64,000 bases of DNA from Parietichytrium sp. I65-24A (lineage: Eukaryota; Sar; Bigyra; Thraustochytrida; Thraustochytriidae), in NCBI GenBank assembly GCA_012862575.1, contig BLSF01000041.1, forward strand, positions 124,001 to 188,000. Reading direction: 5' to 3'. This document shows positions 38,638-57,457 of the stretch, piece after piece. The position numbers were made by a program, and so were the translations under genes. The stretch's first letter is position 1; every line of letters starts with the position of its first letter. The notes below the pieces were generated by a model. It saw only the letters and a program-made list of their open reading frames with translations. It was not told where the DNA came from and made no database searches.

Positions 38638-40186
38638 GTTCTCTTTCCCTTAAAACTCCAAAACAACTTTAGATTACATTTGAAGTGGCAGTTGCGAATT
38701 TGCCACTGTCAAAAAAAAAAGGGTTTTCAAGGAGCAAGTGACACGTTTGGTTTGGTTTTCGGTCTTCGGTCTTCTCTTGACGAGAATTTGCAGAGAGCTC
38801 TGCGCCTGTCGGTGAGTAAATCGAGTGCCTTCAACAAGTCCAATTTCTAAATCTAGTTTTTTTATTGGATGGCCACTCGAAATCATTCGCGAATCTGTTT
38901 ACCGTTCAGGAATCAAGACACACCTTTCGCGAAATTGAGACCATCGAACGTGCAAACTGTCAGACTCTGGAAAAAAAAAGAAGAAGAAAATGTCGACCCA
39001 GCACTTATACTATTCCTTCACAGAAAAAGGTTTCAGAGTCAATAGCATGCTCCGGATCCAATGTAAGCCGGCAGAGGTCCGCTGCAAACCGTAATTTGAT
39101 GTCGCTCGCTTGCTTCCGCTGTCTCTAGCGGGAATTGCTGCCGAAAGTCTGGGTGTGCGTACATCAGCCCAAAACCAGTCAATAGTTTGTATTATTGGCG
39201 AGTACAAGTTTAGTTGTATTCCGAGATAATCTTGTCGCCAATAATTGCTATTTCACCTTTAGGTAGTAAAAAAGAAAAATACTGCAAGTATGAGTTGGGA
39301 GGTGGACTGATTGCTCTCGAGGACCGTGACATCCTCTTCCGTACCGGTATCAGGCTTTGTGTTGCATTTCGGAGCACTTTGCTTCATGAACTCTATGTTG
39401 TGTGTTCCGTAGTCCACCAACCTAATCCTTTTGGAATTTTGGAACATTGAATGCTTTTTCGGCCTGACACATGTAGAAATGATAATACTAGTTGAAATTA
39501 GCAAGGCATCACGAAAAAGTGTCAGCGGACTGGATCTCACCCCACCTTCCGATAGCTGCACTTCGTGGCTCCACTTGACTGGATCCAGTTTGTTTGAAGT
39601 TGGAGAACTCTTCGAAATTCTGCGAAACTTAAAATCTGGCCCAAATAAGCCGATTAGTCCGAGTGTCTAGCTAGCTAGCTAGGTGTTTGAGTTCGTTCCC
39701 CTGCTGGTCAGTATTCTCACTATCGTTCATTTTCTGTTAGAACTGGTGTAGGAAGTGTAGCGAGCGTACAGTAAGAATTGGGGTGAGGTAGCATGAGGTA
39801 GCATTCGAGCCACTGCTATCTCTATGTAAACCAAGTGTTGTAAGTGCTGTGTGACAAAGACGTAGAGAGGGTAGAGTGTTGATGTCACAGTTGGAGCTTC
39901 CGAGTTCGGCACCTCGGGATGTTGGTTCAAGAAACAGAGAGTTAGTGAGTTAGAGCCCTGTGAAGTCGAACACGAGTTCAGAGAGATCTTGAACGAAGCG
40001 GAATAGGTTGGCTGGATAGACTGGCTGGAATTTATAGTGGCGAGGTCGGTGCCTCTTCCTGCTTGTCTCAGCGCAGGCGGCGTTTGAACAAAAGTGCAAT
40101 AGCTACGAGCAGAGTGGTCGTGATGGTTGCCGATAGATAGGTGGTGGACGAAAGTGAGGTTCTACAAGCGTGAGGGAACCTGCGAG
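38638..40186 (+). other. Intergenic region upstream of the SFI1-like gene
   Basis: About 1.55 kb. It contains a GTACCGGTAT word (39341-39350), a miniature insertion with flanking direct repeats (39528-39585), a CTAG run (39668-39683), a 10-bp tandem duplication (39784-39805), and a 5-codon upstream ORF (40123-40140) that ends 46 bp before the SFI1-like ATG. No gene recognised. Confidence 0.6.
39528..39585. mobile_element. Miniature insertion, copy A, with 9-bp flanking repeats
   Basis: The 38-nt core at 39538-39575 reads CACCCCACCTTCCGATAG followed by CTGCACTTCGTGGCTCCACT. It is flanked by identical GACTGGATC at 39528-39536 and 39577-39585, with one extra T at each junction. The same core, with 12 extra internal bases, recurs at 57394-57443 between a different direct repeat. 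Shared core plus copy-specific flanking repeats is what target-site duplication produces. No terminal inverted repeats were found, so the class is unknown. Confidence 0.7.
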
Positions 40187-43100
40187 ATGTCAGGAAGCAG
40201 CATCAAAAAACAGTCATTTGACCAATGGGCGAACGCGCTTCCGCAATCCGCAAGTGAAGAGCATGGGGAGCTTCTTTCTACCTCTGACTTGAGAAGCGAG
40301 ACCAGGAACCTTCCAAATAATGGAGATTATAGCTGGCAAGGTTCCATTTCTTCAGAGGATACCTCGGAAAAGCCAGAGGGCAATGAGCTGCCCATGGCGG
40401 GAAAAAGCACAACGAAAGATCGCACAGGATTTCAGTCGCGCTCAAACCCACACGAGGTAGAAGAGAACGATGCAGAGAACTTTTCTTCCGGGGAAGCTTG
40501 GGGGAATGAGCTATTCTCGCTCGAAGATATATTAAATCAAACTGACATGTACTTGAGAGACACCGAGCAACAAATTAAGCAGGCTGGCCACTCTCGGTTC
40601 ACTAAAGACCTTGAAAAACTGCCGTCTACATCTGGGTCGAAGTCTCTATTATATGGGGAGAACAACACCCCAAAGAACCTTCACCCTTCAACTCCGACTG
40701 AATCAAGCGCTTCTAGGCGTGTGCTTGTGGGGCAGCGCCCTTCCAGTGCCCGCCCACATAAAGCTAGGTCACAGAGAAGAAGGAGTAACTCTGTTGAGGA
40801 GGTTGATCTGTTTCAGCATTGGAACAACCAAAACGTAAGCCGGTCTGAGAGTTTGGATGGTGCATCTCTCTCGTCAACACGGCAACAACGCCGAATTTGG
40901 GACACAGAGGAAATAACGGCTAGGGAGATGATGCTCGATCATCTCGAGCGGCCGGTAGAGTCGAGTAAGCCCACCTTCCCTGGAACGCAGCATTTACATG
41001 GGCAAGATGCCGAAGCAATCAACAGCTACCTTCGCGAACTTGAATTCATGCAAGAGGTGAACCGCCAGCTCTGGTCCCGCGCTTCCAAGCGGGTTGCATC
41101 AGCTGTAAGCCCTTCAACTTCAGATCGCTTAGAGGTCTTTGGCAATCCAGTCTCGTCGCAAACGAAAACACGAGAGACTGGAAGAGGGAGGAACAACGAT
41201 CTTGGATCAACTTACAAGTCAACCTTCGAAAGATCTGAAGATTGGTTTGGCAACGAACGAAGGGGAGTCAAGGATGAAAATTTGGAGGACTCTATTCTGG
41301 GCTCCGCTGCCTCCAGTAGACCGCAGTCGCCATCGATTGTCTCGTTAGCCTCAAACGCGTCTTCACTCCCGCCGCCTCCACCGCTTGTAGATCAATCACT
41401 TTTAATTCCCCAACCTCGCGCTTACGTGCATCTACACGCGCTGAGGGTCTGCACAAAACTCGCTCGCGCAAAGCTTTCTAGGTATTTCTACAAATGGCGC
41501 GAGAGTACTGGGCATACAATGGTTTCAAGAAGCGCTCTTTTGAGGACGCTCCTTGTACGCTCTCGTATCCGCGTCTTATCTCTCGGGTTTCGAAGGCTGT
41601 GTTTACACTCCGAGCGGATTCATACCAGCTTGCTGCAAAGCGACGTACAGCGGCATTCCGATTTGGTGCTTTACATGAGACAGCACATGTCTGACGCAGC
41701 CTCTGTTCGTAAGGGAGAGATGCGTAGACTATGCTGCTTGCTACTCGCAGGACAGCTTCGAGTCAAAATGCAAACTGCCAAGTGTAGAGCCTTTCTCCGA
41801 TGGAAACTAGACACCGAACAGAGTCGTGCCAATGATGCAATGCAGGCCAGAATTGTCGCGGAGCAGAGTCGCCGAGAGAAGCTTGCTGAGCGACTATCGG
41901 ATGCTTGCAAAGAAGTTTCAATATCAGCACAAAAGAACTTGCGCAAGATTGGTTTGCTGAGCAAATTGCTATTCCAAAAGCGAGTAAAGCTTACTTCATA
42001 CGCATTCCATCGCTTAGAAAAGAGGATGCTTGTTCAGCGGGTTGTCTTGTCTTCGGTCAAGATTGCCACGATACAGTCCTTCGCGGACATCTCGAACTAC
42101 AAAACAATGGGTAGGTCTTTTGAGCTGTGGAAGTGGACAACCCATAAAAACGCATGGAGGCGACGATCAGCCATACTCTTCCTCCGCATTTTAGACAGAG
42201 TGTCTTCCACGGAATCAGCACGCGTTTGCCAAATAGCGTTTGACAAAATTCGAGTTCACAGCGAATCAGAAGGAAGGAGACGAAGAATTTTGAGCGCTAC
42301 GGCGAGTCGGCTTTCAAGACGGAGATCGCACATGCTCGCACGAGCTTTTGGTTTGTGGCGCTCGTGTGCTTCTTGGCGTTTGCATTCGACTAAATCTGTT
42401 CGCCTCATCACTTGCTTGATTCGGTGGAGGCATCAGCGTCTGGCCCTTGGATTTAGCACTTGGGCGGACGGCATTCAAAGAATACGAGAAAAGCGCAGAG
42501 GTGCGAGAGTCGTCGCTCTGATGCTCGCAAGACTGTCAACTTCACAAGTTGATCTCCGATATGCGTTTCGGGCTTTGCAGCAGCATCGCCTCATCGAAAA
42601 TGAAGTTCGCCTCTCCCGCACGATCAACGAGCTAAGCGGGAGCCAGTCCGCAACCCTACAATTTCATATACTGAAGAAGTGGACAACAGTACGAATAAAT
42701 CGCGCATTTCAAATATGGAAACACACGGCCCTCCTAGACCAAGCAAACGTTAAAACTGGCTTGCATTTGCTTAGAACAACAATCTACCGCTGGTGTCTCC
42801 GCGCTCTCGCCAAGGCTTTCCGATCTTTAAAGTCACACGCGGAGAGCCAACGATTGAAGGTTATGGCCATCGAAAAGTGGATAACAAACACAAAATCGGC
42901 AGCATTTCAAAAGTGGTACGCCGTTTGCATATGCGAAACGCGTCGGGAAGCGCAAATGAGGAAGGTTGTCATGAGAATCGAGAAGAGAAATGTTGCGGCA
43001 GCGCTTTCATCGTGGAAAGTCTATCTGCGCCGGTGCAAGGCTGCCAGGGTACTGTTCTGTGTCTGTTCCAGGAATGGCGTTGGCAGCAAGATGAAGGCTT

Positions 43101-46100
43101 TTCATATCTGGAGGTATTCTGCGGTAATGGCTCTTCCGCAAAAGCCCACCCAATCGCTTGATACTCGGAGGGCAAGGGCCTGTTTTGATATAGCGTCGGC
43201 GTTTCAGCAATACAGAAATCGAGTGCGTAGAGATGCGTTCTCGCAATGGCGAAATACATTCATGCAACCCCAGGCGCAGACGACAGAAGACGCGAATTCC
43301 ACGGAGTTGAAAATCCTGATGCACACTGGGAGCAGCCCAACCAACTGTCATGGCGGAACACGACTCGACTTACTCTACGTGAAAATCGCGCGAAAAAGTC
43401 TGGATGTACTGTCACGCGCTTTGAAGACGCCTATGTTGAGGAGAAGATTTCGCCAGTGGAATGCACTAAATATTAAAATTCGAGCAGCTGAAAAGCTGAG
43501 AGATGTTGCCGTGGCGTTGGAATACAGGAGATGTTTGCTTACTGCCTTGTACAAGTGGAAAAGTGTCTGCTCCACAGACAAGTGGCTTCGAGCTGTCTTC
43601 ATCAGATGTTGCGGTGGAAACTTTCAGTTTGTATGTAGCTCGGCTTTTTTCAGATGGAAGTTCTGGGCATGGCGCGCAAGACAACGAGAGTCTTTATGGG
43701 TCACGCGTCTCTGCCAGATTCTGCAACGGCACCGCACAGCAGTTATTGCCCAGGTATTTTACAAGCTTGCCGATCTTGCCAGAAGCAATTCGACTACAAC
43801 CAATTCGCATGGGGCAGTAGCAGTAGACCAGCAAAGGCGTAAATTACTTGCAAGTGCCAATTTGCTCTCAGCGCTGCGGGAAACTCGGCAGAAGAGAATA
43901 TTGACTGCTTTTCAAACATGGCGAGGAAAGATGCTTCTCTTTCAGAACCACCAGCGGCAGCAACTAAGCTTGCTAAGTCGGTGCCTGTCAAGTACTTTGG
44001 TACGGCAAAACACGAGACAAACTGCTCGAGCTTTCTTCACATGGAAACTTGGCACTATGCCAAGCATCTCACAAGGAGAGATTGTTCTGCAAAGTGAGCC
44101 TAATTCTCCCAAAGTGGTTACAGATGGAGATGCGGACACCCGGGCTGGGCAGCTGGCAAAGGCTATGGCTAGGTGGCAACAGGCTCAGAGAACCGCGAGT
44201 ATGGCTGAGTGGAGGGTCAAAGTTGCCACGGCTGTGCTTCGGCGAAGAAGGGTCGCAAAGACCTTCAGAGGTTGGAGGGATCGCACAAACACCCAACGGG
44301 AGCTCAAACTCTGTATAGCGCATTTTGCTCGTCGGTTGGCCCAAAGAATTCAGCGTGAAGCTTTTGAAAAGTGGGCGTTGCAAGTTCAGAAATCGATATC
44401 GGCAGCTAGTAAGGCCAGAAGCGTGCTTTCGACCGCCGCAAAACGCTGGTTTACCTTTCAAACTCGATTATATTTTTCCAAATGGAAGTCGGTGGCCGCA
44501 AAACTGAGGCTGCAGGAGAAAGCGATAGCTTCTTGGGCAAGTAAGAGTCGTGTTTTCTTGCTGCGACAAAGCTTTGGACGTTGGAGGACACTTGTTGGCA
44601 GGGAGAATTGGAGAAGAGCAATTCTCCGGAAAGTAACCTTCAGATGGGCGCTTTGCCTTCAACGTGCTGCTTTCCAAGAGTGGCGACGATTCAAAAACCG
44701 AGCCGATAATTTAGACTTCCGCTTGCGAACAGCCATGCACTCTTTCATCACGTATCGTCAGCGCTTGCAAAGGCTTGCTCTGGACAAGCTCGCCTCGTGG
44801 GCGTCTTTTGAGCGAAGCCGGATCGCCATACTCCAGCGCACGTTGAGACAGTGGTCGAATTGGCGCTTGAAGTTGGCTTTGTCAAGATGGCGGTCACGTA
44901 TTACGTTACTTCGAAGGTTGCAAAGTGCCCTTTCTCGAACCGTTCGATGCCTTGATGGGTCGCAGAGAGCACTGGCGTTCTATAAATGGAGAAAATCTGT
45001 AAACCATTCCCGCTTGACGATGGCAACGCTGAGCTCTCTCGATCGCACTCAAAACCGACGTTTCCTAACAATAGCAATCCAGAAATGGAAAATCTTCCGT
45101 GGCAGATCAAACGGATGCAAAAGGATGCACTCGATATTTCGGCGCTTCGTTCTAGTGAAAGCCTTTCGCAGTTGGAAAATCCGATCCGGCGAAGCGTGGA
45201 GAAAAGAAGTCGCTGTTAGATTCATGACGGCTATGTTTGGCAGATGGTCTGCAAGGCGTCTCCGCAGCGCATTCGATCGGATGTTTGTCCAGCTGCAAGT
45301 CTTTCACAGCAAAAGAGAGCTCTCGTCAGTTCCTAAACCATATATTTATTTGGCAACCCAATTGAGGGCCTCAACTCGCCAACATTGGAACCGCCGAATC
45401 CAATTTGCTTTTCAGAAGTGGGCGGTGGAAACAAAAAAAGGTCGGAGTGTTAAACATGAAGAATTCCATCTAAGCGTAGTAGCTTGGGCGTTTCGGCACT
45501 GGAAGGTTGTGAGTGACACTATTATTCAGCGCAGAAAGCACCTCTCACGTGTTGCAAGCGGTGCCCGAAGGCGTGCTCTTGTGTCGCGTTCCATGCGACA
45601 ATGGAAGCATTTCGCAAAGACACAAATGTGCCGTCGCCAGTGTCTCAAGAATCTCTTCAAGAAGAAAGAGAAGAAGCTCGTGTCCAAGTCTTTTTCTGCT
45701 CTTCTACGGCAAAGGCAAATATATTCTGGAGCCAAAGCAATGGTGAAATGGTTGTATAACTCCAGGCAAAAGCTTCTAGCGTCGGCAATGCAAATCTGGA
45801 GAAATGGCACAAAATTCCACCGTTCGATTGCTAAGGTATGTGCAAACTTTGAGCGTGTGCACATGAGATCTGCGCTTCACAGACTCTTGGAAAACGCTCA
45901 GAGTGCGAAGAAGATGGAATTTTCGCTTTGCGCGCTCAGTAATCAAAGTCGTCACATCGAGATTATTGCAATGCAGATTCGTCAAGCGTTTTCAAGACTT
46001 CGTGAAAACTCAGTTGTCGGTTCGCGGAAGGTCCAAAAGTTGGCTTTGTTGACTAGATGCGTGTGTAAGTACCAGAAGAGGGCAGCTCTTCAAAGGCTGG

Positions 46101-49100
46101 CACGAAAATCTCACGAGTACCGCAGTCTCACACGGGCCAGTGACTGCGTAGCGAGATTTCAACTACGAGTTGCTTTCCGAAGCTTGTCGGCTCGCAGAGA
46201 CAGGAGTTCGGCTCAAATGGCGTTTGTGCGCTTCATCAAGCAGCGTGAATTGTCAGTGTTGCGAAAAAGCTTTTCCAAACTCACTCGACACGCGGCCTCT
46301 CATCGCTTTATGGAAGGTTGTGCCGACAAAATGTATCAGAGGAGACAGCGGAGCTTCTTACTTTGTTGCCTAACGGCATGGCGCAGAAGAACCAAGCTAC
46401 AGAGCTCACTTCGGCATGCATTTCGGATTATGGCGGAACGAAGCGAACTTGGTTTGTTGCGCGATGCATTCAATCAGCTACGAAGTAATTTTGTGCTGTG
46501 CGAGATCTCTCGGCAATTCGGTGAACGTGCGACTTTTATGAAGCTGGCGCGTGTATTCTCCGAATGGAAAGGGTACTGTGTTAATCAGAGACGATTGAAA
46601 TACGTGCTGAGAAAGCACGTCGTTGTTGCACGTCTCAAAGCCTCTTTCAATCATCTCGCACGATTACGTCTCGAGCAGAGGGTTGCGATTCTCATTTCCC
46701 CATTACAAAAATTAGCACTTCGCACAGAACTGGGCGAGAAAAGACGTTTTTTCCAAAGATGGAGGGACTGTGTGTCGAACCAGCTTCGGCAAGGAATTGC
46801 GTGCATGCGCTTAATCTCTATTTGTGAGAATGCTGAAATTGCTAGTGCGTTTTCGACCTGGAGAGCCAGGTGTCGTCACGAGGGATTGATTAGATCCGTC
46901 CTCGTAGACGCAGCACACCGGAGACGAAGTAAGATGATGCGGGCCGGCTTTCAAGCACTTCTCACCGTTCGTTGGAAAGAAGCAGTTCACGTGTTGGCTC
47001 AACGATTGGTCCAGTTGCTGGGACGAAATTCTCACCAAATGATCGGAGCGATTCTGAAGAGTCATTGCGCTGAAATTCTTGGCGTTGACGACTGTGATGT
47101 GCACGTGCACTTGGGATCTGGATTTACGATAAAGTCGTATGGCGCAGAATTCGACGTGTCTCTAGAGAATGGACCTGAGCTCTTCTTGAAGAACTGGGCT
47201 GGAAATGCCATCGGATCCTTGAAGGTAGCTCCTGGTGTTTTGAGCACTTCATCGAAAAGCAGCTTTGAAAACATGAAGGAGTACGTGAGCACCGTCGGGC
47301 CAGCAATTGGGGCACTATGGAGGAATCGAGTGTCACGCTGCGCGATGCAGCTGAAAAGATGCCTTCGAATGCAGGACGCGAAAGTTCTTCTCTTCGGTTT
47401 TAAAAGATGGAAGCGTTCTCATAAGCTGTCCTACTGCTTGGAGCGGGTGTTTCTCAGAATTGCGCCTTTGCAGCACTGCAAAGTTGCTCTCGATAGGTGG
47501 CGCCGCATTGCCTCCCATGACTCTGAGCGAGACGTGCGTCGTGAAAGCCAATCGCGTTCACTTCAAATTCTCGCACTGAGGTTGGACTTGACACGATTTC
47601 GTCTGTCCTCTGAACGAGTTAGCTTCTTTGCTTTGAGGCAACATGCTATGACAACCCGAAATCGCAGCTTGCTCTGCAAGATGTTTATCCTTTCTGCAGA
47701 GAAACTCGCGCAAATGACCCTGGGCAGCCGATTTCTATTTTGGAAGGCAGCGACAATCTCACAAGCAAAGTATGAAGAGAACCTCAGCCGGATTCTGTAC
47801 AAGCTCGAAAAGAGGAAGCTCGAGAGGCAATACTTTGAAAACTGGAAAACGAACACGACTGAAACGCGCGCAGAGAGAATCAGAGAGGCCTTACAAGCTC
47901 ACTCGAGAAAGGAGAAAGCCGCCCTTCGGCTCGTTCGCCTCGTTACTCTGTTCATCGGAAGACGAGCTCTTGAACTGGGCATGTCTGGGTTGAAGGAAAA
48001 CTGTATCACGAATCGTTTTCAAGATTTGGTTTCAGGAAAATTAAATTCCAGACGTCGGAAAGCAATGTTGCAACAGAGTTTTCAAGCTTGGCGGAACGTT
48101 TCGCATCGCTCTGCCAAAGAAAAACTGGTTTCTCTGCTGCGTATGACAAACGAGGCTTATGAACGTAGCAAGGTGTCTTTCTCGCAAGAGATGTTCAAAA
48201 GAATCTTAGCTTCGAACTTCGGAGCGTGGAGGGTGGCAGCGAGAGCTCACAAGCTGCATCGCGAGAATCGCATGCGCCGAATATTTTGTGGCTGGCGCGT
48301 ATTGTCAAAGTCGAATGAGGGCAAGGTAGCTCTTCTCCGACTATGCGAGAGGCAGCAACGAAGACATCTGCGCGAATACTTTCAAAGGTGGAAAAAATTC
48401 TTTGAATGTCAAAGGAGAAGGTATCAAGCGCTGTCTCGCGCCCTCAAGGTGTTGTACTTTACAAAGATGTTGCGCGCTTTCCAATGTTGGAGGCAGTTGT
48501 CTCTCGACTATGCATTGAAGGAAACTTACTTCGAGCGGATGTGCTCTGTGGTGCAGAACGGACAGCAGAGAATCTGCTTTCGCCGATGGAAAATGTTCGC
48601 TGAATCCAGGTCGCATGCGCATGCAAATTTCTATCGCTGCGTGTGTCGTTTGATTGAAAGAGCCGACGCCGCTCAGAGGTCGATGTTTAGTGTGTGGAAA
48701 GGCTGGGCAAAGGGCGTTGGAGATTTCGAGAGATTAGAGCACAGCCTGAGTTGTCGAATTCGTGCCTGTGCAGCACTTGATCGATTGGTGCCTGCTCAGA
48801 AGCATCCCCGCCGATTGGCAATTCGTTTTCTCCGTCATTGGAGAGCTTTCACGCGGGCGGCTCGCCTCGAAATTCTTCGAAAAACATTCTCGGAGTGGCA
48901 GAAATTTACAGAACGGCGTCAGACTCTCGTGTCGTTCAGCAATGCAAGCGTTGCTTTGCTCAAGCTTTGGCGAGATGTGCGCTTGTTGCGGCGTTGTTTC
49001 GCTTCATGGAAGTGCATGGCTGAAGAAAGACGGGCCCTGTGGAGCATCCACAAGTGCGCGCAAGCGAGAAAGGAGCATTACTGGCAGCGACGCAACTTGA

Positions 49101-50014
49101 GAGCGGTTTTTCATAGTTGGAGAAAGATGTCAGAAGCACAGAGCCGGAGTCGAGACCTTGCTCGGAAGTCTCGCCTCCGCAAATTTTTCACGCTCTGGTG
49201 GAGAAGCGCGTTGAAACTTGTTCGCCAAAGAACGGCCATCGAAGTCGTGCTTACTGGGCGGCGGCTGACCTGTAGATCGGCCTTCCGCACTTGGCGGTTC
49301 TACACTCAAGCAAGAAGCGCAGCAGAATATCGACTGGTTTCACAATCCTTAAGTGATAGATTGGCCGCTGTAGCACAGCAGAATAGGTCGGCGATTGAGC
49401 AGCTTGAAAGCTCACTAGAGCAGTTGCAGGCCACGATGAGCAAGGTGAAGCACAGAGCAAACCGGAAAATTCACTCTTTGGTCGAATCTTCGAGAGTGTT
49501 ACAGGAGGGCCTCGAATTAAAGTCTATGAGAAACGAGGAGTTGGAGACTGAAGTGCACGGGCTACGGGAGTCTTTGCTTGAGCAGAAGCGCGTCGGGGAG
49601 TGTTGCGAAATGCAACTGATCCGGTCCAAAGAAGAAAACCAGCGACTCTCTCACAGCATGCGGCTCTCTCTTGCAGATCTTGAAGGCGGTTCTCGGGTCA
49701 GTAAGGAAGACTTTACACAATTGGAGAAGTACTGCGAAAGTGTTGAGAGCAAGCTTTTTCAAACTTGTAGCGAGAAAGAGAGACTTGAGAAGAAGCTTGT
49801 GAAGGCAAGCCGTCTTATCGATAGCCTTGAAGCAGAGGTAGAGAATGGCAGATTGGAGCTGGAAAGATACATGAGTTTTGCACAGCTTGAAAAACAAAGT
49901 TTTACCGAAGCGTTAGTTTCGACGCTCGGGGAGGGGGGGTATGGTCCGGGCACCACATCCACGTCCGCATCAACTGAATTTGACGTGTTGCATCACATGA
50001 GAAGGTCTGCGTGA
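40187..50014 (+). CDS. Giant SFI1-like centrin-binding repeat protein
   Basis: An intron-free 3,275-residue protein. Residues 1 to ~430 are hydrophilic, Ser/Glu-rich and probably disordered. From ~433 to ~3040 run helical SFI1-type repeats of the pattern Phe-x-x-Trp-(Arg/Lys), such as ARAFGLWRSC, MKAFHIWRYS, RRFFQRWRDC and RRIFCGWRVL; I count about sixty clear Trp-containing units, far more than the ~20 of yeast Sfi1. A block at ~1888-2044 has related units without Trp. An island at ~2279-2381 does not fit the repeat. The last ~225 residues are coiled coil. In yeast and animals Sfi1 binds centrin along each repeat to form a filament in the spindle-pole half-bridge or centriole. ATG 40187 is the first in-frame Met; a 5-codon upstream ORF precedes it. 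Confidence 0.88.
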   Translation: MSGSSIKKQSFDQWANALPQSASEEHGELLSTSDLRSETRNLPNNGDYSWQGSISSEDTSEKPEGNELPMAGKSTTKDRTGFQSRSNPHEVEENDAENFSSGEAWGNELFSLEDILNQTDMYLRDTEQQIKQAGHSRFTKDLEKLPSTSGSKSLLYGENNTPKNLHPSTPTESSASRRVLVGQRPSSARPHKARSQRRRSNSVEEVDLFQHWNNQNVSRSESLDGASLSSTRQQRRIWDTEEITAREMMLDHLERPVESSKPTFPGTQHLHGQDAEAINSYLRELEFMQEVNRQLWSRASKRVASAVSPSTSDRLEVFGNPVSSQTKTRETGRGRNNDLGSTYKSTFERSEDWFGNERRGVKDENLEDSILGSAASSRPQSPSIVSLASNASSLPPPPPLVDQSLLIPQPRAYVHLHALRVCTKLARAKLSRYFYKWRESTGHTMVSRSALLRTLLVRSRIRVLSLGFRRLCLHSERIHTSLLQSDVQRHSDLVLYMRQHMSDAASVRKGEMRRLCCLLLAGQLRVKMQTAKCRAFLRWKLDTEQSRANDAMQARIVAEQSRREKLAERLSDACKEVSISAQKNLRKIGLLSKLLFQKRVKLTSYAFHRLEKRMLVQRVVLSSVKIATIQSFADISNYKTMGRSFELWKWTTHKNAWRRRSAILFLRILDRVSSTESARVCQIAFDKIRVHSESEGRRRRILSATASRLSRRRSHMLARAFGLWRSCASWRLHSTKSVRLITCLIRWRHQRLALGFSTWADGIQRIREKRRGARVVALMLARLSTSQVDLRYAFRALQQHRLIENEVRLSRTINELSGSQSATLQFHILKKWTTVRINRAFQIWKHTALLDQANVKTGLHLLRTTIYRWCLRALAKAFRSLKSHAESQRLKVMAIEKWITNTKSAAFQKWYAVCICETRREAQMRKVVMRIEKRNVAAALSSWKVYLRRCKAARVLFCVCSRNGVGSKMKAFHIWRYSAVMALPQKPTQSLDTRRARACFDIASAFQQYRNRVRRDAFSQWRNTFMQPQAQTTEDANSTELKILMHTGSSPTNCHGGTRLDLLYVKIARKSLDVLSRALKTPMLRRRFRQWNALNIKIRAAEKLRDVAVALEYRRCLLTALYKWKSVCSTDKWLRAVFIRCCGGNFQFVCSSAFFRWKFWAWRARQRESLWVTRLCQILQRHRTAVIAQVFYKLADLARSNSTTTNSHGAVAVDQQRRKLLASANLLSALRETRQKRILTAFQTWRGKMLLFQNHQRQQLSLLSRCLSSTLVRQNTRQTARAFFTWKLGTMPSISQGEIVLQSEPNSPKVVTDGDADTRAGQLAKAMARWQQAQRTASMAEWRVKVATAVLRRRRVAKTFRGWRDRTNTQRELKLCIAHFARRLAQRIQREAFEKWALQVQKSISAASKARSVLSTAAKRWFTFQTRLYFSKWKSVAAKLRLQEKAIASWASKSRVFLLRQSFGRWRTLVGRENWRRAILRKVTFRWALCLQRAAFQEWRRFKNRADNLDFRLRTAMHSFITYRQRLQRLALDKLASWASFERSRIAILQRTLRQWSNWRLKLALSRWRSRITLLRRLQSALSRTVRCLDGSQRALAFYKWRKSVNHSRLTMATLSSLDRTQNRRFLTIAIQKWKIFRGRSNGCKRMHSIFRRFVLVKAFRSWKIRSGEAWRKEVAVRFMTAMFGRWSARRLRSAFDRMFVQLQVFHSKRELSSVPKPYIYLATQLRASTRQHWNRRIQFAFQKWAVETKKGRSVKHEEFHLSVVAWAFRHWKVVSDTIIQRRKHLSRVASGARRRALVSRSMRQWKHFAKTQMCRRQCLKNLFKKKEKKLVSKSFSALLRQRQIYSGAKAMVKWLYNSRQKLLASAMQIWRNGTKFHRSIAKVCANFERVHMRSALHRLLENAQSAKKMEFSLCALSNQSRHIEIIAMQIRQAFSRLRENSVVGSRKVQKLALLTRCVCKYQKRAALQRLARKSHEYRSLTRASDCVARFQLRVAFRSLSARRDRSSAQMAFVRFIKQRELSVLRKSFSKLTRHAASHRFMEGCADKMYQRRQRSFLLCCLTAWRRRTKLQSSLRHAFRIMAERSELGLLRDAFNQLRSNFVLCEISRQFGERATFMKLARVFSEWKGYCVNQRRLKYVLRKHVVVARLKASFNHLARLRLEQRVAILISPLQKLALRTELGEKRRFFQRWRDCVSNQLRQGIACMRLISICENAEIASAFSTWRARCRHEGLIRSVLVDAAHRRRSKMMRAGFQALLTVRWKEAVHVLAQRLVQLLGRNSHQMIGAILKSHCAEILGVDDCDVHVHLGSGFTIKSYGAEFDVSLENGPELFLKNWAGNAIGSLKVAPGVLSTSSKSSFENMKEYVSTVGPAIGALWRNRVSRCAMQLKRCLRMQDAKVLLFGFKRWKRSHKLSYCLERVFLRIAPLQHCKVALDRWRRIASHDSERDVRRESQSRSLQILALRLDLTRFRLSSERVSFFALRQHAMTTRNRSLLCKMFILSAEKLAQMTLGSRFLFWKAATISQAKYEENLSRILYKLEKRKLERQYFENWKTNTTETRAERIREALQAHSRKEKAALRLVRLVTLFIGRRALELGMSGLKENCITNRFQDLVSGKLNSRRRKAMLQQSFQAWRNVSHRSAKEKLVSLLRMTNEAYERSKVSFSQEMFKRILASNFGAWRVAARAHKLHRENRMRRIFCGWRVLSKSNEGKVALLRLCERQQRRHLREYFQRWKKFFECQRRRYQALSRALKVLYFTKMLRAFQCWRQLSLDYALKETYFERMCSVVQNGQQRICFRRWKMFAESRSHAHANFYRCVCRLIERADAAQRSMFSVWKGWAKGVGDFERLEHSLSCRIRACAALDRLVPAQKHPRRLAIRFLRHWRAFTRAARLEILRKTFSEWQKFTERRQTLVSFSNASVALLKLWRDVRLLRRCFASWKCMAEERRALWSIHKCAQARKEHYWQRRNLRAVFHSWRKMSEAQSRSRDLARKSRLRKFFTLWWRSALKLVRQRTAIEVVLTGRRLTCRSAFRTWRFYTQARSAAEYRLVSQSLSDRLAAVAQQNRSAIEQLESSLEQLQATMSKVKHRANRKIHSLVESSRVLQEGLELKSMRNEELETEVHGLRESLLEQKRVGECCEMQLIRSKEENQRLSHSMRLSLADLEGGSRVSKEDFTQLEKYCESVESKLFQTCSEKERLEKKLVKASRLIDSLEAEVENGRLELERYMSFAQLEKQSFTEALVSTLGEGGYGPGTTSTSASTEFDVLHHMRRSA

Positions 50015-50300
50015 AATCTCGCTGCGGAACTCGGGGTGCGGCTAGCGCACCAAACTAGCGTTTCTGGCGAATGGTGAACCAAAATGTCACCCCAAGTTGT
50101 CCCCTCGCATTGCATACGTCCTCTTGTGGTGCTCGCCTTGGACCAATATGATGAGCTGCACGTATTTAATGGATTTGATAGATCGTAACTTTAAAACATG
50201 CCATCACTTGTTCTTTTACAGAGTTTTAAGATAGAGGTTTGCAAAAAGGTACAAAAGTCAGCCAGCATGGTGAAGGCAAACAGAGAGAGCTTCTCGGAGC

Positions 50301-51692: not shown

Positions 51693-52158
51693 GGCGGCAA
51701 CAGGCTTTTTAAGTTCACACAAGCTCACACAGGAGGGAAGCAGTTGCTCAGCAGCACTTGGCGTGGATCCTGCTCGCGGCTGCTGCTGCAGGAGCTCGAG
51801 CAATGCGTAAGAGAGTGAGTCCCACGAAGGGCGAGGGAGATAAGAGCGACACAGTTCGAGGGGGCCGAGCCCTGGGAACAGGTCGAGGACAGCAACAGGG
51901 TCAAGATGGAACGCTGATGATGTTGGAAGAGAGGGCAGAGAATGCAAGAGCTGGAAGAGCGATGAGACGTGACGAGATACAGATGCAGCACTGGTGCTAT
52001 TGGTGGTAATAGTGAGTACTTAATGCACGTACCGTCAAAGTCATACACTGTGCCAGGCTGGGCAGTCTTGGCCGAGGAACAAACTTTTGTAGAGTGTCTC
52101 TAGTGGAAATGCTATACCAATACCCACGTCGGCTGTCGCTCCAACCAAATGGTTCAAT
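51693..52158. other. Divergent spacer between DPAGT1 and tRNA-Leu pair
   Basis: About 470 bp. The DPAGT1-proximal half is open in the DPAGT1 frame but not family-like and is probably leader. Contains GTGAGTACTT near 52012. Upstream promoter elements for the tRNA genes were not recognised; tRNA promoters are internal. Confidence 0.55.
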
Positions 52159-52258
52159 GGCACGATGCCCGAGCGGTCTAAGGGGTCACGTTAAGGTCTT
52201 CCTGAGGAAGGTTCATCCGTGATGCGAAAGCGCGCGAGTTCAAATCTCGCTCGTGTCA
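52159..52258 (+). tRNA. tRNA-Leu(AAG) with 20-nt intron, copy 1
   Basis: A full class II tRNA folds here. The acceptor stem is GGCACGA with TCGTGTC (one G-T pair), discriminator A at 52258. The anticodon stem is TCACG/CGTGA and the loop after splicing is TTAAGGC, giving anticodon AAG (52193-52195), which reads CTT and, as inosine, CTC. The long variable arm is TGCGAAAGCGC and the T arm GCGAG/CTCGC with loop TTCAAAT. The intron (52197-52216) sits between positions 37 and 38, the canonical nuclear site, and contains a CTTCC/GGAAG hairpin. Position 73 A and the long arm fit Leu. No run of four T follows before copy 2. Confidence 0.93.
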
Positions 52259-52287
52259 ATTGTCTTCGGTTTCTTCTCAATTTATCT

Positions 52288-52388
52288 GGCACGATGCCCG
52301 AGCGGTCTAAGGGGTCACGTTAAGGTCTTCCGAAAGGAGGGTTTATCCGTGATGCGAAAGCGCGCGAGTTCAAATCTCGCTCGTGTCA
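52288..52388 (+). tRNA. tRNA-Leu(AAG) with 21-nt intron, copy 2
   Basis: The mature sequence is identical to copy 1, 29 nt downstream. The intron (52326-52346) is 21 nt and differs from copy 1 in loop and in the 3' stem, with hairpin CTTCC-GAAA-GGAGG keeping pairing through a G-T pair. Anticodon AAG at 52322-52324, discriminator A at 52388. Confidence 0.93.
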
Positions 52389-52773
52389 AAATTCTTTTTC
52401 AAATTTTACATAGTTCGATAGTTCGGAGATCTGTCTTGTTTGTTTCCAGCGCGTCCAATCAGAACATATCAGAACTCACTGTCAAGTCACTTTTCTTGGA
52501 GTCGCAGTCGGGGCTGTCTGTCTCTTTATGTCTCTTTTGTCTTTCCGCAGACTCGTCCTGTATCCTGCACCGTGACCTAGCCCGGGTACTAGCTGCAGTG
52601 ATCAACTACGCATAGAGTGGCAACTTCGAAAGGTCAGGAGAGTCAGAAGAGAGTTGGGCGAGTGAGTGATGGACAGGGAGTGACACTTGCTGACTGCGAG
52701 TAAAACGACGCCGAGTTGTCAATTCATCTCGATCGAGAGGCAGCTCGTTCGGAGGTTGAAGGGCATAGCTGTG
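52389..52773 (+). other. Spacer between tRNA pair and PAAT-like gene
   Basis: About 385 bp holding the Pol III terminator and the leader of the PAAT-like gene. Nothing else recognised. Confidence 0.6.
52395..52399 (+). terminator. RNA polymerase III T5 terminator
   Basis: TTTTT seven bases after the discriminator of tRNA-Leu copy 2. It is the first run of four or more T after either tRNA gene. Confidence 0.8.
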
Positions 52774-53676
52774 ATGGAGGACGAGAAGGAAAGGCTGCTG
52801 CGACAAGCGGCTTCTCTGCAAGGGCTCTTGCAAGGTTTCGCAAATCTCGCGGGTCCAGAGTCTCGCCTTGCCAAGCCTCCGAAGCAGTTTGGACCTTCTC
52901 CAGCAAGTGTGCCTCAGGTGGGCAAACCTAGGGCTGACTCGGAAAGCCTTGGGGCCTCCGATAGCGGCGAGACAAAAGACCTTGCTGGCGCGGGCACGGA
53001 CAAGGTGCAGTTCTCGTGCACGTGGGACTTGATAGGTGGAGGGAAAGGAATGGAGAGCTTGTTCGATGAAAGCGAACAAGCCGTTGAGTTTGGCAAGCCG
53101 GACGGTTCGGAGGAACCTTGTATTTTGTCATCTGGAAGTCGTCTTTCGATCAGCTGCATCTCTTGCTGGAGCAACGCACGCTGGCTCGAAATACTGGACG
53201 GCGAGCAGTATTTAGAAACTGTTCGAGGCATCGCGGACAGTGAAAGATGCGGCGTTTTTAAATTCGACTATGCGGGGGCTGGGCAGCCGATTCAGAGCGA
53301 CCTGCGCATCCGTTTTTTGTCGCTGCCCAAAACTTCAAAGTCGCGGTGTCTCATTTACCGCTTTCACATGGATGCCAAAGTTTTGCATAGACCCTCCACA
53401 GAAGGAAAAAAATCGTTGTTACCACAAAGCACACTATCTACGTCCGGGCCATTACAAAGCGCACTACAGCAATTTGAGAAGCAAATAGAAGCACAAATGC
53501 GCTTTATACAACAAAAACTTTCAGCTCTAGAAGGTCGAGTATCGCACCTTGAAGTGGCTCAATCTCAAGTCAGTAATTTCTCTACAGGCGGATTGAGCGT
53601 CGAAGATTTGGCAAGTAGAATTCAAAGCTTGGAAGAGACTATTGTCCAGGTGAAGAGCAACATGCTGACAAAGTGA
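52774..53676 (+). CDS. PAAT/C10orf88-like protein (tentative)
   Basis: A 300-residue protein from ATG 52774. The N-terminal ~75 residues are helical then Pro/Ser-rich. The middle (about 85-210) looks like a beta-rich domain: FSCTWDLIG, SGSRLSISCISCWSNARWLE, GEQYLETVRGIAD, IRIRFL-like RIRFLSLPKTSKSRCLIYRF. The C-terminus is a coiled coil (QQFEKQIEAQMRFIQQKLSA...). This order, a strand-rich domain in which an element like RWLEILDGEQYLETVRG precedes a C-terminal coiled coil, resembles animal C10orf88 (PAAT), a protein reported to associate with mitochondrial ABC transporters. The resemblance is from memory of the family, not a computed match. Its stop lies only 45 bp from the stop of the convergent DMAP1 gene. 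Confidence 0.55.
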   Translation: MEDEKERLLRQAASLQGLLQGFANLAGPESRLAKPPKQFGPSPASVPQVGKPRADSESLGASDSGETKDLAGAGTDKVQFSCTWDLIGGGKGMESLFDESEQAVEFGKPDGSEEPCILSSGSRLSISCISCWSNARWLEILDGEQYLETVRGIADSERCGVFKFDYAGAGQPIQSDLRIRFLSLPKTSKSRCLIYRFHMDAKVLHRPSTEGKKSLLPQSTLSTSGPLQSALQQFEKQIEAQMRFIQQKLSALEGRVSHLEVAQSQVSNFSTGGLSVEDLASRIQSLEETIVQVKSNMLTK

Positions 53677-53721
53677 AGACCTTCTGCTGCAGCGCCAGAT
53701 AGAGGTGGTCACATTCTTCAA

Positions 53722-55371
53722 TCAGTTCGCTTTTGATTTTTTCCTTGCGGCGCCACCGCCGCCGGTGTTGCTTTTCCTCTTGCCAGAGTTCGCAGCCTTC
53801 CCGACGAGCGGGGCGGATGGATTGGCTTCTATGGGTGCCTCGCCTTCAGTCTTGATCTTTGTCTTGTTGGTTTGCCCACCACTTTGCTTCTTTTTGCTCG
53901 TCGAGCTGCCGGTGGACTGGGTGGGCAAAAGCGGTTGTGGGATTGCAAAATTTGGAGCAGAAGCCGAGCTGTTGGTAGTCGCTCCGGTTAGGTCGATCTC
54001 CGTTCCATCCCCGACGTAAGCTGCAGTGTTTGGAGCGTTCTGCAGCTTTTGCTTTTTATTCCGCGCTTTGGTCTGGCCGGGGCGAGAGGGAGCGGGGACC
54101 CCTTGCAATGTGCATAGCTCTGCTTTTGCGTCGAAGAGCTTGGTCTGGAGAGCGAGCAGCTTGATCGTATCCTGTCGAAGTTTATCGAATGCGTTGCACA
54201 CGGTCACAGTCGGAACAGGCCGAATTGGAAGCCCGAGCTCTGTAAAGAGACTGTTCATTTTCTGGTCAATTCGTGATCCTATGCCAATCTGGGACGGCAT
54301 AACTCGGAGCCGCGCGCTTCGAAGGTAAACGCGCGCTTGCTTGCTATTAATATCAGTCTTCAGGGTATCTGGGTTCTCCTCATTCAAAATGGCTTCCATC
54401 AATGTCGGCGGGAAGTGCTGAAGGACCGGAACACTGGTCTTCGCTTTGCTGCGTTTCGGCGCCTCTTTTTGCAATCGCCGAAGTTGCAAATCTATCCTAC
54501 GTATCTCATTTACAAGATTTGCCTCCTCTTTCTCCTCGGAAGGGGTGCGAGAGAAGAGTAATTCGAGCTGCTTGACGCGCTTTTCCTCTTGGGCTTTGTC
54601 AAAGGTATAATCTACAATGGCATTTTCCACGAGCGCCATCGCTTTAGCAGTGACCTTGGCGGTGTCTTTGATTTCTTTGCCGCTTTTGGCGGCAGGGGAA
54701 CTCGCAACCTGCGTTCCGTTCGCAGTGTCTTCAGCAGGCTGAAGCTCCGGTGCGCTCTCACCGGCTGGAGCAGCCACACTTGTTTGCCTTTGCAATGCCT
54801 TCACAGTTTTTTTGTTCTTTCTGGCAAGCAGGATGAGTTTTGCGACCGCATAATATCTTGCTCTGAGCTCCGTCACCGATCTCGCAGACTCCATAGGCCA
54901 CCTGTCGAAGATTATATACCACCTCAAATCAAATTTATCACAAAGGCGAAACAGGACGTCTGTCTCTTCCTTGGTCCATCCGGATTCTCCATCATGTTGG
55001 GTGACAAAGATGTTGTATTCCTCATCGAGGTACTGCACGACAGCAGTTTTTTTGTTGAAACGTGCAAATGCATAGTCGTTGTGTACGTTTGCTTCCCTTT
55101 GCCAATGTTCGAACTGGACTCCGTCGGCCCGCGCAGAATTTGAAAATCTTGCCCAAAGCCATCGCTGTGCTGGAGTACCCTTGCGTGACCTGAGCTCGTC
55201 TGGACTCGCGCCAGCCGGCATCATGGATGGTAGAGAGTTGGAGCCAAGCAAGGCGAAGACCTCCCGGCTCATCCCGTCCGGCTTTTTGATCCCAGAAGCC
55301 TTTCGGCCTCCTGGCATTGCGGCCTTCAGTGACCCATCGGCCAGCCCCAGGATATCAGCAACATCCCCCAT
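53722..55371 (-). CDS. DMAP1/SWC4: DMAP1/SWC4 chromatin-complex subunit
   Basis: A 549-residue subunit expected in the NuA4 acetyltransferase and SWR1 (H2A.Z-loading) complexes. The N-terminus MGDVADILGLADG, the segment QFEHWQREANVHNDYAFARFNKK and the SANT-like core WTKEETDVLFRLCDKFDLRWYI with FDRWP are diagnostic of DMAP1/Swc4. Further C-terminal, MNSLFTELGLPIRPVPTVTV is the conserved DMAP1 domain. The last ~90 residues are Ser/Lys-rich with a basic nuclear signal (GKRKSN, AARKKSKAN). ATG 55371 is chosen because it begins the conserved N-terminus; the frame upstream has no ATG. Intron-free. Tail-to-tail with the PAAT-like gene. Confidence 0.94.
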   Translation of the reverse strand: MGDVADILGLADGSLKAAMPGGRKASGIKKPDGMSREVFALLGSNSLPSMMPAGASPDELRSRKGTPAQRWLWARFSNSARADGVQFEHWQREANVHNDYAFARFNKKTAVVQYLDEEYNIFVTQHDGESGWTKEETDVLFRLCDKFDLRWYIIFDRWPMESARSVTELRARYYAVAKLILLARKNKKTVKALQRQTSVAAPAGESAPELQPAEDTANGTQVASSPAAKSGKEIKDTAKVTAKAMALVENAIVDYTFDKAQEEKRVKQLELLFSRTPSEEKEEANLVNEIRRIDLQLRRLQKEAPKRSKAKTSVPVLQHFPPTLMEAILNEENPDTLKTDINSKQARVYLRSARLRVMPSQIGIGSRIDQKMNSLFTELGLPIRPVPTVTVCNAFDKLRQDTIKLLALQTKLFDAKAELCTLQGVPAPSRPGQTKARNKKQKLQNAPNTAAYVGDGTEIDLTGATTNSSASAPNFAIPQPLLPTQSTGSSTSKKKQSGGQTNKTKIKTEGEAPIEANPSAPLVGKAANSGKRKSNTGGGGAARKKSKAN

Positions 55372-56074
55372 CTTCGGTAGCCCGGAACGACAGTTTTGCC
55401 TTGCGGAGGTCAGGACCACTTGTGTAGGAAAAAAGAAATCGGCGACACTCCCGCTCCAAGACGTCGCAACCCGCGCTTATGCTGCCGCAAAACCCTTTAT
55501 CCCCCAAGGAAGGTCAAGCAACAGAGAAGGGCTCAAAGTCTCCCTTCCCCACCTCTCTTGTGTGCTCCGCAAAACGAACACAAGAATGCTCTTCCCACAG
55601 AGATGCCTAACGCTGATCTTCTGCCAAAGAGCAAAACGAAGCTGACAGGGAAAGGGTTCGCGGCTTGACTCGCTGCGCTGCGATATTCTATAGAAAATTA
55701 TCCTTCGCACGCACGTACGTTCGCCTGCCGGTCAACAACGCCGCGCAGAGCTGCACGACCTTTTTGGACTTTTGAAGAAAATATTTTGGGAATTTTTGTT
55801 CACTATGCAAAAATTATAGCGACAGTAAGGAACGAGCGAAGGATCTCTGATTTATTCCTTGCTCTTTTCGAACGCCGGATTGTGACAAACGTCGAGGCAG
55901 ATTAGATTGTATTTGGGTCTGAATGCATTAAAAAGTGTCTAGGAAGACACAAATGTTAGGCAGGGTTTGGTTCGTTCAATTGAATTTTCATTTCACAACC
56001 GCACGCTTGCAAGAAATTTAACCTTGTTTTTGCGACAACGTAAACAATTTTCTATTTGCTTGAGACACATGAAA
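55372..56074 (-). other. Intergenic region between GDPD and DMAP1 genes
   Basis: About 700 bp between two minus-strand genes. The part near DMAP1 is C-rich on the plus strand; the part near GDPD is AT-rich and probably 3' UTR. No gene recognised. Confidence 0.6.
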
Positions 56075-56974
56075 TTATTTCGCCAAGACTAAAGCGAGAA
56101 TGATGGCAACTAAGAGCATCAGAATACCCACATACACAGCAAGGTTGGGTCTGGAGGGCCCGCCATCAGGAGCTCTCCCACCCTTCTTGTACTCTGCAAC
56201 AACATATTCCCGGGCCTCATTTGGAAAATTGGAGATGAATCCGTCAACCCCTGCCTCCATGCAGAAATGCCACTGCCATGGCATGTCGACAGTCCACACA
56301 TACACTGTTTTCCCCTTCTTGTGCACTCGGTCAACAAATTCCTTGGTGACAAACTTAATCGCAGGATTGTACGAATCGAAGCCAAGCCTAAGCGCTGGAT
56401 CGAGCCTACGCCAGGGGAACATGAGGAGATGCAAAGGAATGGACGGCTCCATTGCCCGGATTTTCAAAAGATACGACTCGAGAAAACTTTGGATAACAAC
56501 ATGCTCCTGTGCAGCATTACGTCGGATGCATTCAATCACTGCACGAGCCAGTCCTTTGTACGGCTGGAAAAACCCTCCTGTCCACTCGAAGAAAGAAAAC
56601 TTGATTTCGATCAGCAGCTTTGTTTTGCAGTCTTCTCTTGAGACGAAAAGCTCCAAGACTTGATCTAAGGTCGGGACTTTTGTGCCTTTGAACTCCTTTC
56701 CCTTGAAGCTTCCCACGTCAAGCTTTTCAAGTTCCTTGAGCGTAAAACCTTTGACGGGACCTTTTGCGTTCGAAACCCGGTCCACAGACGGATCGTGAAA
56801 GACAACCACCTCCTTGTCAGCGGTGAACTGTACATCAATCTCCACCATATCCACTCCTGCCTCGATTCCAGCTTCGATCGCCGGAAGGGTGTTTTCCGGG
56901 AACCTGCCGCTCAAGCCGCGGTGCGCGATCAAAAGCGGCATCTCGAGCTTCTTGCTCTGGCTTCCTCTCCCCAT
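56075..56974 (-). CDS. Glycerophosphodiester phosphodiesterase with C-terminal membrane helix
   Basis: A 299-residue GDPD-family TIM-barrel enzyme that hydrolyses glycerophosphodiesters (or lysophospholipids) to an alcohol and glycerol phosphate. Catalytic motifs: IAHRGLSGRFPENTLPA (His and Arg, plus Glu), VEIDVQFTADKEVVVFHD (Glu, Asp and second His), LLIEIK in the middle, and VYVWTVD near the end. A hydrophobic segment (about 277-298, YVGILMLLVAIILALVLAK) forms the extreme C-terminus, so the enzyme is probably tail-anchored with the barrel in the cytosol; this topology is inferred. ATG 56974 is chosen because the frame upstream is translated from GGATCTG repeats and has no ATG. Confidence 0.9.
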   Translation of the reverse strand: MGRGSQSKKLEMPLLIAHRGLSGRFPENTLPAIEAGIEAGVDMVEIDVQFTADKEVVVFHDPSVDRVSNAKGPVKGFTLKELEKLDVGSFKGKEFKGTKVPTLDQVLELFVSREDCKTKLLIEIKFSFFEWTGGFFQPYKGLARAVIECIRRNAAQEHVVIQSFLESYLLKIRAMEPSIPLHLLMFPWRRLDPALRLGFDSYNPAIKFVTKEFVDRVHKKGKTVYVWTVDMPWQWHFCMEAGVDGFISNFPNEAREYVVAEYKKGGRAPDGGPSRPNLAVYVGILMLLVAIILALVLAK

Positions 56975-57001
56975 GGTGCCACTGACAGGAGACCAGCGCT
57001 G

Positions 57002-57031
57002 GGATCTGGGATCTGGGATCTGGGATCTGGA
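57002..57031. repeat. 7-bp GGATCTG tandem repeat
   Basis: Four perfect units of GGATCTG/GGGATCT just upstream of the GDPD ATG, with degenerate units continuing to about 57054. Confidence 0.93.
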
Positions 57032-57383
57032 ATTTGGGACCTCGGATCTGGTTCTCACAATCAGCACCTTTCGCGCCTTCGCCCAACCCCATGCACCCAA
57101 CTGCACCCAACTGCAAACTGCACTTGTCGCCTGTCACTCAGTGTGCACAAATGGTGCGGGATGGCATATTACTATTATCGGTACAATCATGACGATAAGA
57201 TACTATAAGCAGCTCAAGCATACTGCTCTTACTACTTTTCTACTGTAACTCTCCAAACACAGCAGTGTACGTACAGTACCGACCGACCCTTGTCTCTGGA
57301 ACCGGAGTTCTGACTGTGAATTCGTGGGAGGGATTTGGAACCTGCTTGCGGACTTTATATTGCGTTTCCGAGTCTCGACCTGC

Positions 57384-57457
57384 ACAGAAGCACCACCCCA
57401 CCTTCCGATAGGGTTTGTTTACGCTGCACTTCGTGGCTCCACTCAAACAGAAGCACC
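57384..57457. mobile_element. Miniature insertion, copy B, with 11-bp flanking repeats
   Basis: Core 57394-57443 equals copy A at all 38 shared positions, with 12 extra bases (GGTTTGTTTACG, 57412-57423) between the two halves. It is bounded by ACAGAAGCACC at 57384-57394 and again at 57447-57457, with CAA between the core and the right repeat. The flanking repeat differs from that of copy A, as expected for independent insertion events. Confidence 0.7.

Follow-up and report, generated by a model that had tools for sequence, protein, structure and literature searches.

The window analysed here, a 64,000-nt stretch of the thraustochytrid Parietichytrium sp. I65-24A (contig BLSF01000041.1, positions 124,001 to 188,000), holds two copies of a tiny element of about 52 bp, and both are members of a large family interspersed through the genome. 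The element probably derives from a discrete RNA of about 52 nt that is copied into the chromosome by target-primed reverse transcription (TPRT), with a partner of the long interspersed nuclear element (LINE) type. The initial annotation, made from the letters of the window, had described the two copies as a tiny insertion, mobile and bounded by target-site duplications, and had proposed looking for further copies genome-wide and for direct repeats around them.

Within the window, the right-half 20-nt core gave two matches at up to 3 mismatches, versus none in 100 shuffles. The left-half 16-nt core alone was weaker, with two window matches against a shuffle mean of 0.35, and at least two matches in 6 of the 100 shuffles. 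In the genome (42,540,916 bases, 172 contigs), the two-part core had 64 exact matches, an A-type 41-mer 124 matches at up to 3 mismatches (control 0) and a B-type 24-mer 178 matches at up to 2 mismatches (control 0). A 21-mer spanning the old and young left ends, again with up to 3 mismatches, gave 442 matches (202 forward, 240 reverse; control 1). The left 20-mer was not found in two other collections, viral_contigs and genome_contigs; a single 18-mer match there (L135) lacked the left half and was rejected. Of the 442, a set of 109 distinct copies was studied in detail, namely those in fetched loci (numbered with L; contigs are numbered with C) whose left end could be recognised. As these loci were mostly picked as exact or near-exact matches, young copies are over-represented among the 109, and window copy 1 falls outside the sample because of its deletion. 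The copies formed several sequence subfamilies. It had been considered that the core might be a fragment of something larger, and no larger parent element was found among the 109 copies; the seven without a normal right part (L018, L031, L049, L070, L079, L106 and L109) were shortened, decayed or nested instead.

An exact flanking direct repeat of at least 7 bp was present in 74 of the 109 copies, while re-paired flanks of different copies predict 2.5. The length of the duplication was determined by a strict test, which accepted a repeat only where its left copy lay immediately before CACC and its right copy began 0-3 nt past a full right end. Of the 63 copies that qualified, 24 had a repeat of 9 bp, 8 of 10 bp, 3 of 8 bp and 1 of 12 bp, and 27 had 6 bp or less or none; the control gave no repeat of 8 bp or more. 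The number of 10-bp cases appears close to what chance extension of a 9-bp repeat by one base would produce. Repeats of at least 7 bp were found in 51 of 64 copies identical to their subfamily consensus, in 15 of 23 with 1-2 edits and in 8 of 22 with 3 or more. No target motif was seen in the duplicated bases or flanks, where information reached at most 0.12 bits per position. One empty site was recovered. The copy in L090 lies inside a LINE-related repeat with GTTCACATC on each side, and the related sequence in L082 holds GTTCACATC once, with no insert, a paralogous, single-copy version of the target. Nine further bases adjoin the site in L090 and are read as a separate indel. Of 74 queries made from joined flanks, no other gave a clear non-self case; the remaining matches across the junction were discarded as self-matches, simple repeats or matches between elements. 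The genome-wide copies and their duplications thus support a mobile insertion, as initially proposed.

The RNA-sense strand of the element is the minus strand of the window copies, 5'-AAGUGRAGCCACGAAGUG...CCCUAUCGGAAGGUGGGGUG-3', and is about 52 nt long. The young types, written as RNA on this strand, which is opposite to that used in the initial annotation, read 5'-AAGUGAAGCCACGAAGUG(AGA/CA)GCGUAAACAAACCCUAUCGGAAGGUGGGGUG-3' and measure 51-52 nt. One end of the element, GGTGGGGTG, is fixed and corresponds to the 3' end of the RNA sense, with the tail CCCTATCGGAAGGTGGGGTG. The fixed end was checked in the loci of 20 of about 36 listed right-core matches absent from the near-exact lists, a choice that selects against intact left ends. 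In those loci the left end was in register for 17 of 21 right cores (at most 7 mismatches of 20, reached by 7 of 2,000 random segments); the other four were a degenerate copy in L100, a rearranged nest in L109, and L103 and L108, which are without the element. The opposite, right end varied: among 74 copies it was full in 52, 1 nt short in 6 and at least 3 nt short in 16. Before the duplication, the 52 full-length copies showed an added G (13), A (9) or AA (4), nothing (7), a final T or TT overlapping the duplication (4), or other or longer additions of 2-16 nt (15). Their single added bases were purines in 22 of 22 cases, never C or T. A fixed end, an opposite end that is variably shortened and bases added on the variable side are the features of a TPRT retroposon.

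As the initial annotation had stated, terminal inverted repeats (TIRs) are lacking: on direct reading of the aligned termini (CACCCCACC / AAGTGRAGCC on DNA), CACCCCACCTTCC and AAGTGRAGCCACG do not pair, which sets the element outside the miniature inverted-repeat transposable elements and TIR transposons. It does not resemble an introner either, as direct reading found no GT..AG termini and insertion points lay in open reading frames (ORFs) of at least 150 aa at 13% of 68 loci, versus 40% for random points of the same loci. Rfam searches at E up to 5 gave no match in four 3-kb loci or in 71 bases around one element, and so no RNA polymerase III-derived head (tRNA, 5S or 7SL) of a short interspersed nuclear element (SINE), these searches being the only check made for a promoter. 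Folding predicted an 8-bp stem with a GGAA loop in the 3'-terminal 21 nt of the RNA-sense strand. Its stability against shuffles was z -2.2 for type B and -1.4 for type A, compared with -0.6 for the antisense strand. The stem was tested on 43 of 102 alignable copies, hand-picked for diversity and giving 41 distinct sequences in the alignment; 94.8% of its cells were paired versus a shuffled mean of 95.0. Changes from C-G to U-G and from U-G to U-A retained pairing, no more than under shuffling. The hairpin is given as a prediction only, because compensatory changes on both sides were absent and pairing did not exceed that of shuffles.

Copying from RNA is favoured over DNA transposition because of the fixed 3' end, the variable 5' end with mostly purine additions, the constant 9-bp duplications and the absence of inverted repeats. 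We infer an RNA intermediate, recognition through the hairpin and a LINE-type partner. An enzyme of the partner element would nick the target and free a 3' end, which would act as the primer. Reverse transcription would start at the fixed 3' end of the RNA, which the terminal hairpin with its GGAA loop probably presents. The complementary DNA would reach the RNA 5' end or stop near it, often gaining an untemplated purine, and a second cut 9 nt away would produce the constant 9-bp duplication. Among the origins put forward in the initial annotation, the best fit is an insertion derived from a small RNA. On such a reading the element would be a SINE-like non-autonomous retroposon, with little beyond a recognition hairpin and a short leader.

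The genome was searched for enzymes that could serve such a process. At least two matches to the RVT_1 profile were obtained. One is telomerase reverse transcriptase (L092:864-3635, on C11), one long open frame with Telomerase_RBD. The other is a LINE-like reverse transcriptase gene at the end of contig C1 (L093), which scored under the Pfam cut-off (27.5 and 28.7 bits versus 29.6) and runs into the contig end; a single N there stands between two identical 61-base stretches and is probably an assembly join. Partial relatives of the C1 gene were present on C45, C40, C138, C46, C143 and C35, and phmmer at E up to 1 found no relatives of the LINE protein in the PDB. The L082 sequence is a 5'-truncated LINE-related copy flanked by ACATTTGC, a repeat of 8 bp whose ninth base differs, close to the element's 9. 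Three MULE (Mutator-like element) transposase matches, on C106, C9 and C4, had open frames of 521, 847 and 1,072 aa.

Several observations weigh against TPRT by a LINE-type partner. The 3' regions of L082, L090, L023 and L108, which appear to be LINE-related since L082 and L090 match the stretch that follows the C45 LINE copy at 77-82%, share the end ...AAGCAANTTTTCA, unlike the tiny element, and the element's tail is absent from 1,101 bases downstream of the C45 copy. Two of three LINE-related copies tested, L090 and L023, gave no flanking repeat. No source gene of the element was seen, nor, in the Rfam searches, a promoter. An exact repeat of at least 7 bp was missing from 35 of the 109 copies, 13 of them without edits; the six shortened copies with a single added base had G in three, A in one and T in two; and the hairpin lacks covariation support. 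A strict 9-bp duplication without a target motif would be more expected from a DDE transposase such as that of a MULE, and the genome holds the three MULE transposase matches. The strict duplication, the missing target motif and these matches also favour the strongest competitor, in which the element is a miniature DNA transposon that lacks inverted repeats and a MULE-type (DDE) transposase moves it in double-stranded form. We keep it as the DNA-based form of the "new class of miniature element" suggested at the outset, and regard it as unlikely while giving it real weight. A transposase normally needs a precise terminus, and here shortened right ends adjoin intact duplications (e.g. L061, L089, L070), the termini are not inverted repeats, and the single added bases of full-length copies are purines without exception. 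The copies nearest to the MULE matches on C4 and C9, among the exact left cores listed in full through C15, lie about 13 kb and about 20 kb away.

The remaining explanations account for less. The copies could be retropseudogenes of a conserved 52-nt host small RNA, copied in by a LINE and not a selfish element, and the short discrete unit, the duplications, the missing tail and the one-sided truncation would suit this, with mammalian tailless retropseudogenes as an analogue in the available text of PMC5322556. We consider it improbable: Rfam gave no match even for the 71-base query, and division into several subfamilies seems to suit an evolving element better than it suits a conserved host RNA. 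Hardly any credence is given to an assembly or library artefact. Tn5 tagmentation likewise gives 9 bp without target preference, but the copies lie 0 to 12 edits from their subfamily consensus with duplications that fade with divergence, are nested in places, are common to diverged segmental duplicates such as L121/L122, and are depleted in ORFs. Templated filler at break repair, also raised initially, or chance repeats could be entertained while the two window copies were all that was seen; neither accounts for the hundreds of copies or their constant 9-bp duplications, and we set both aside almost entirely.

Reading the element as a reverse-transcribed RNA invites comparison with known small mobile elements. 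GC clusters of yeast mitochondria and double-hairpin elements of fungal mitochondria are mobile, tens of bp long and contain hairpins; the tiny element resembles them in size and in its predicted hairpin and differs in its 9-bp duplications, which those organellar elements lack. Non-TIR MULEs have 9-bp duplications and no inverted repeats. The tiny element shares the 9-bp duplication, and MULE transposase matches occur in the genome, but it is much smaller and has a variable right end with added purines. The trypanosomatid elements ingi/RIME and L1Tc/NARTc are far longer, and SINEs run to roughly 80-600 nt. The tiny element is short, interspersed and non-autonomous with target-site duplications, as SINEs are. 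In stringent LINEs a 3' stem-loop is recognised by the LINE reverse transcriptase, according to the available portions of PMC5135761 and PMC3747384, and the element is like the SINEs of the stringent pairs outlined there in being non-autonomous and interspersed, with target-site duplications, a fixed 3' end with a predicted stem-loop and truncation at the other end. It is unlike them in having no Rfam-recognisable tRNA, 5S or 7SL head and no 3' simple repeat or poly(A), and no LINE sharing its tail was found among the readable LINE-related 3' ends. Mammalian tailless retropseudogenes, in the parts of PMC5322556 at hand, derive from known small RNAs truncated on the 3' side and were inserted by L1, and their duplications vary in length. 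They too are short, tailless inserts with target-site duplications, whereas the tiny element has a fixed 3' end, 9-bp duplications and one RNA without a known match. A duplication of fixed length is shared with the ingi clade of non-LTR (long terminal repeat) retroposons (trypanosomatid ingi/RIME, L1Tc/NARTc), where the accessible text of PMC3820030 gives a size-conserved 12 bp, compared with 9 bp here, and a conserved upstream target motif, of which the tiny element has none.

In kind, then, the element would be a non-autonomous retroposon. It differs from the SINEs we are familiar with in size, in having no known head or tail, and in its duplication, which is constant at 9 bp. More tentatively, and short of calling it probable, we suggest a new class of minimal retroposon, in which a GNRA-capped 3' hairpin, the sole working part of the 52-nt RNA, would suffice for recognition, reverse transcription, insertion at arbitrary sites and a strict 9-bp stagger. 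If so, few known self-perpetuating units of a nuclear genome would be as small; it would have no described SINE head, promoter or tail, and would give both a lower bound on the substrate content of a retrotransposon and a natural minimal template for TPRT. The copies number in the hundreds, many of them nearly identical and inserted at sites that can be read, which opens the enzyme, the stagger and the template recognition to experiment. Length cut-offs near 80-100 bp in repeat finders could miss such families, and more may exist. No report of this element was found in the open-licence literature, including a search for sequence strings; the only string match, PMC8542040, is by its listing a heart-failure paper and was dismissed.

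Table 1. Coordinates of the element copies in the window and of a second short repeat in the fetched loci.
Feature	Position	Strand	Remarks
Copy 1 of the tiny element	39538..39576 (core 39538-39575)	RNA-sense = minus	12-nt internal deletion
Left target-site duplication, copy 1	39528..39536	unstranded	GACTGGATC, direct reading
Right target-site duplication, copy 1	39577..39585	unstranded	GACTGGATC
Copy 2 of the tiny element	57394..57443	RNA-sense = minus	full interior, variable end one T short
Left target-site duplication, copy 2	57384..57394	unstranded	ACAGAAGCACC; last C is also the element's first base
Right target-site duplication, copy 2	57447..57457	unstranded	ACAGAAGCACC
Predicted 3'-terminal hairpin of the RNA-sense strand, copy 2	57394..57414	minus	ACCCUAUC-GGAA-GGUGGGGU, then G; folding and covariance-model fit
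Second short repeat	L023:1743-1800; L083 ~884-941 (same place in L084); L010:2655-2713; L052:2309-2362	minus in L083	20-base part in L026

Both window copies and their direct repeats were confirmed where they had been reported (Table 1). The 12-base internal difference between them stands, but what had been called extra bases in copy 2 is the family norm, and copy 1 is a 12-nt deletion derivative. In the family register the left duplication of copy 1 may instead be 39529-39537 (ACTGGATCT), with one later substitution and a G added at the right. Copy 2 is followed by an added CAA at 57444-57446, and its duplication is possibly the 9-bp CAGAAGCAC with one chance base on each side. The third candidate noted near 19180 was indeed weak: the covariance model gave a marginal 14.9 bits (E 0.0096) at window positions 19162-19196, which could be a decayed copy or chance. 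Neither copy lies within an ORF: the neighbours of copy 1 are a Sortilin_C ORF and one of 3,275 aa, those of copy 2 a GDPD-family ORF and one of 404 aa. The 3,275-aa ORF (40187-50014) is intron-free and had no Pfam match at E up to 0.001, and ARAGORN, run with the bacterial code, found no tRNA in the window. The genome carries long intron-free ORFs, and no match to the chlorophyll a/b-binding family was found.

Some copies occurred within 100-500 bp of one another, at C13:40220-40720 (L111), C12:289700-290080 (L109), C11:328 kb (L126) and C4:926 kb (L083), and by eye insertions look clustered. Neighbours within L126 and within L083 had different duplications, and nearly the same target was reused in L111. 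Near-identical flanks were shared by the pairs L010/L011 (C5:808/809 kb), L132/L133 (C13:533/534 kb), L121/L122 (C8:608/609 kb) and L099/L101 (C8:681/722 kb); in the first three pairs about 1 kb separates the two copies, which looks like duplication of the insertion along with its surroundings. A second short repeat of about 55-60 bp, for which no clear duplications were seen by eye and no Rfam match was obtained for the L023 copy, was found in several of the loci (Table 1). It starts with CAAGCCAAAGTGCGCCCGCC, contains a CCGCC..GGCGG inverted repeat in its interior, lies in flanks that are otherwise unrelated to one another, and is possibly another tiny family.

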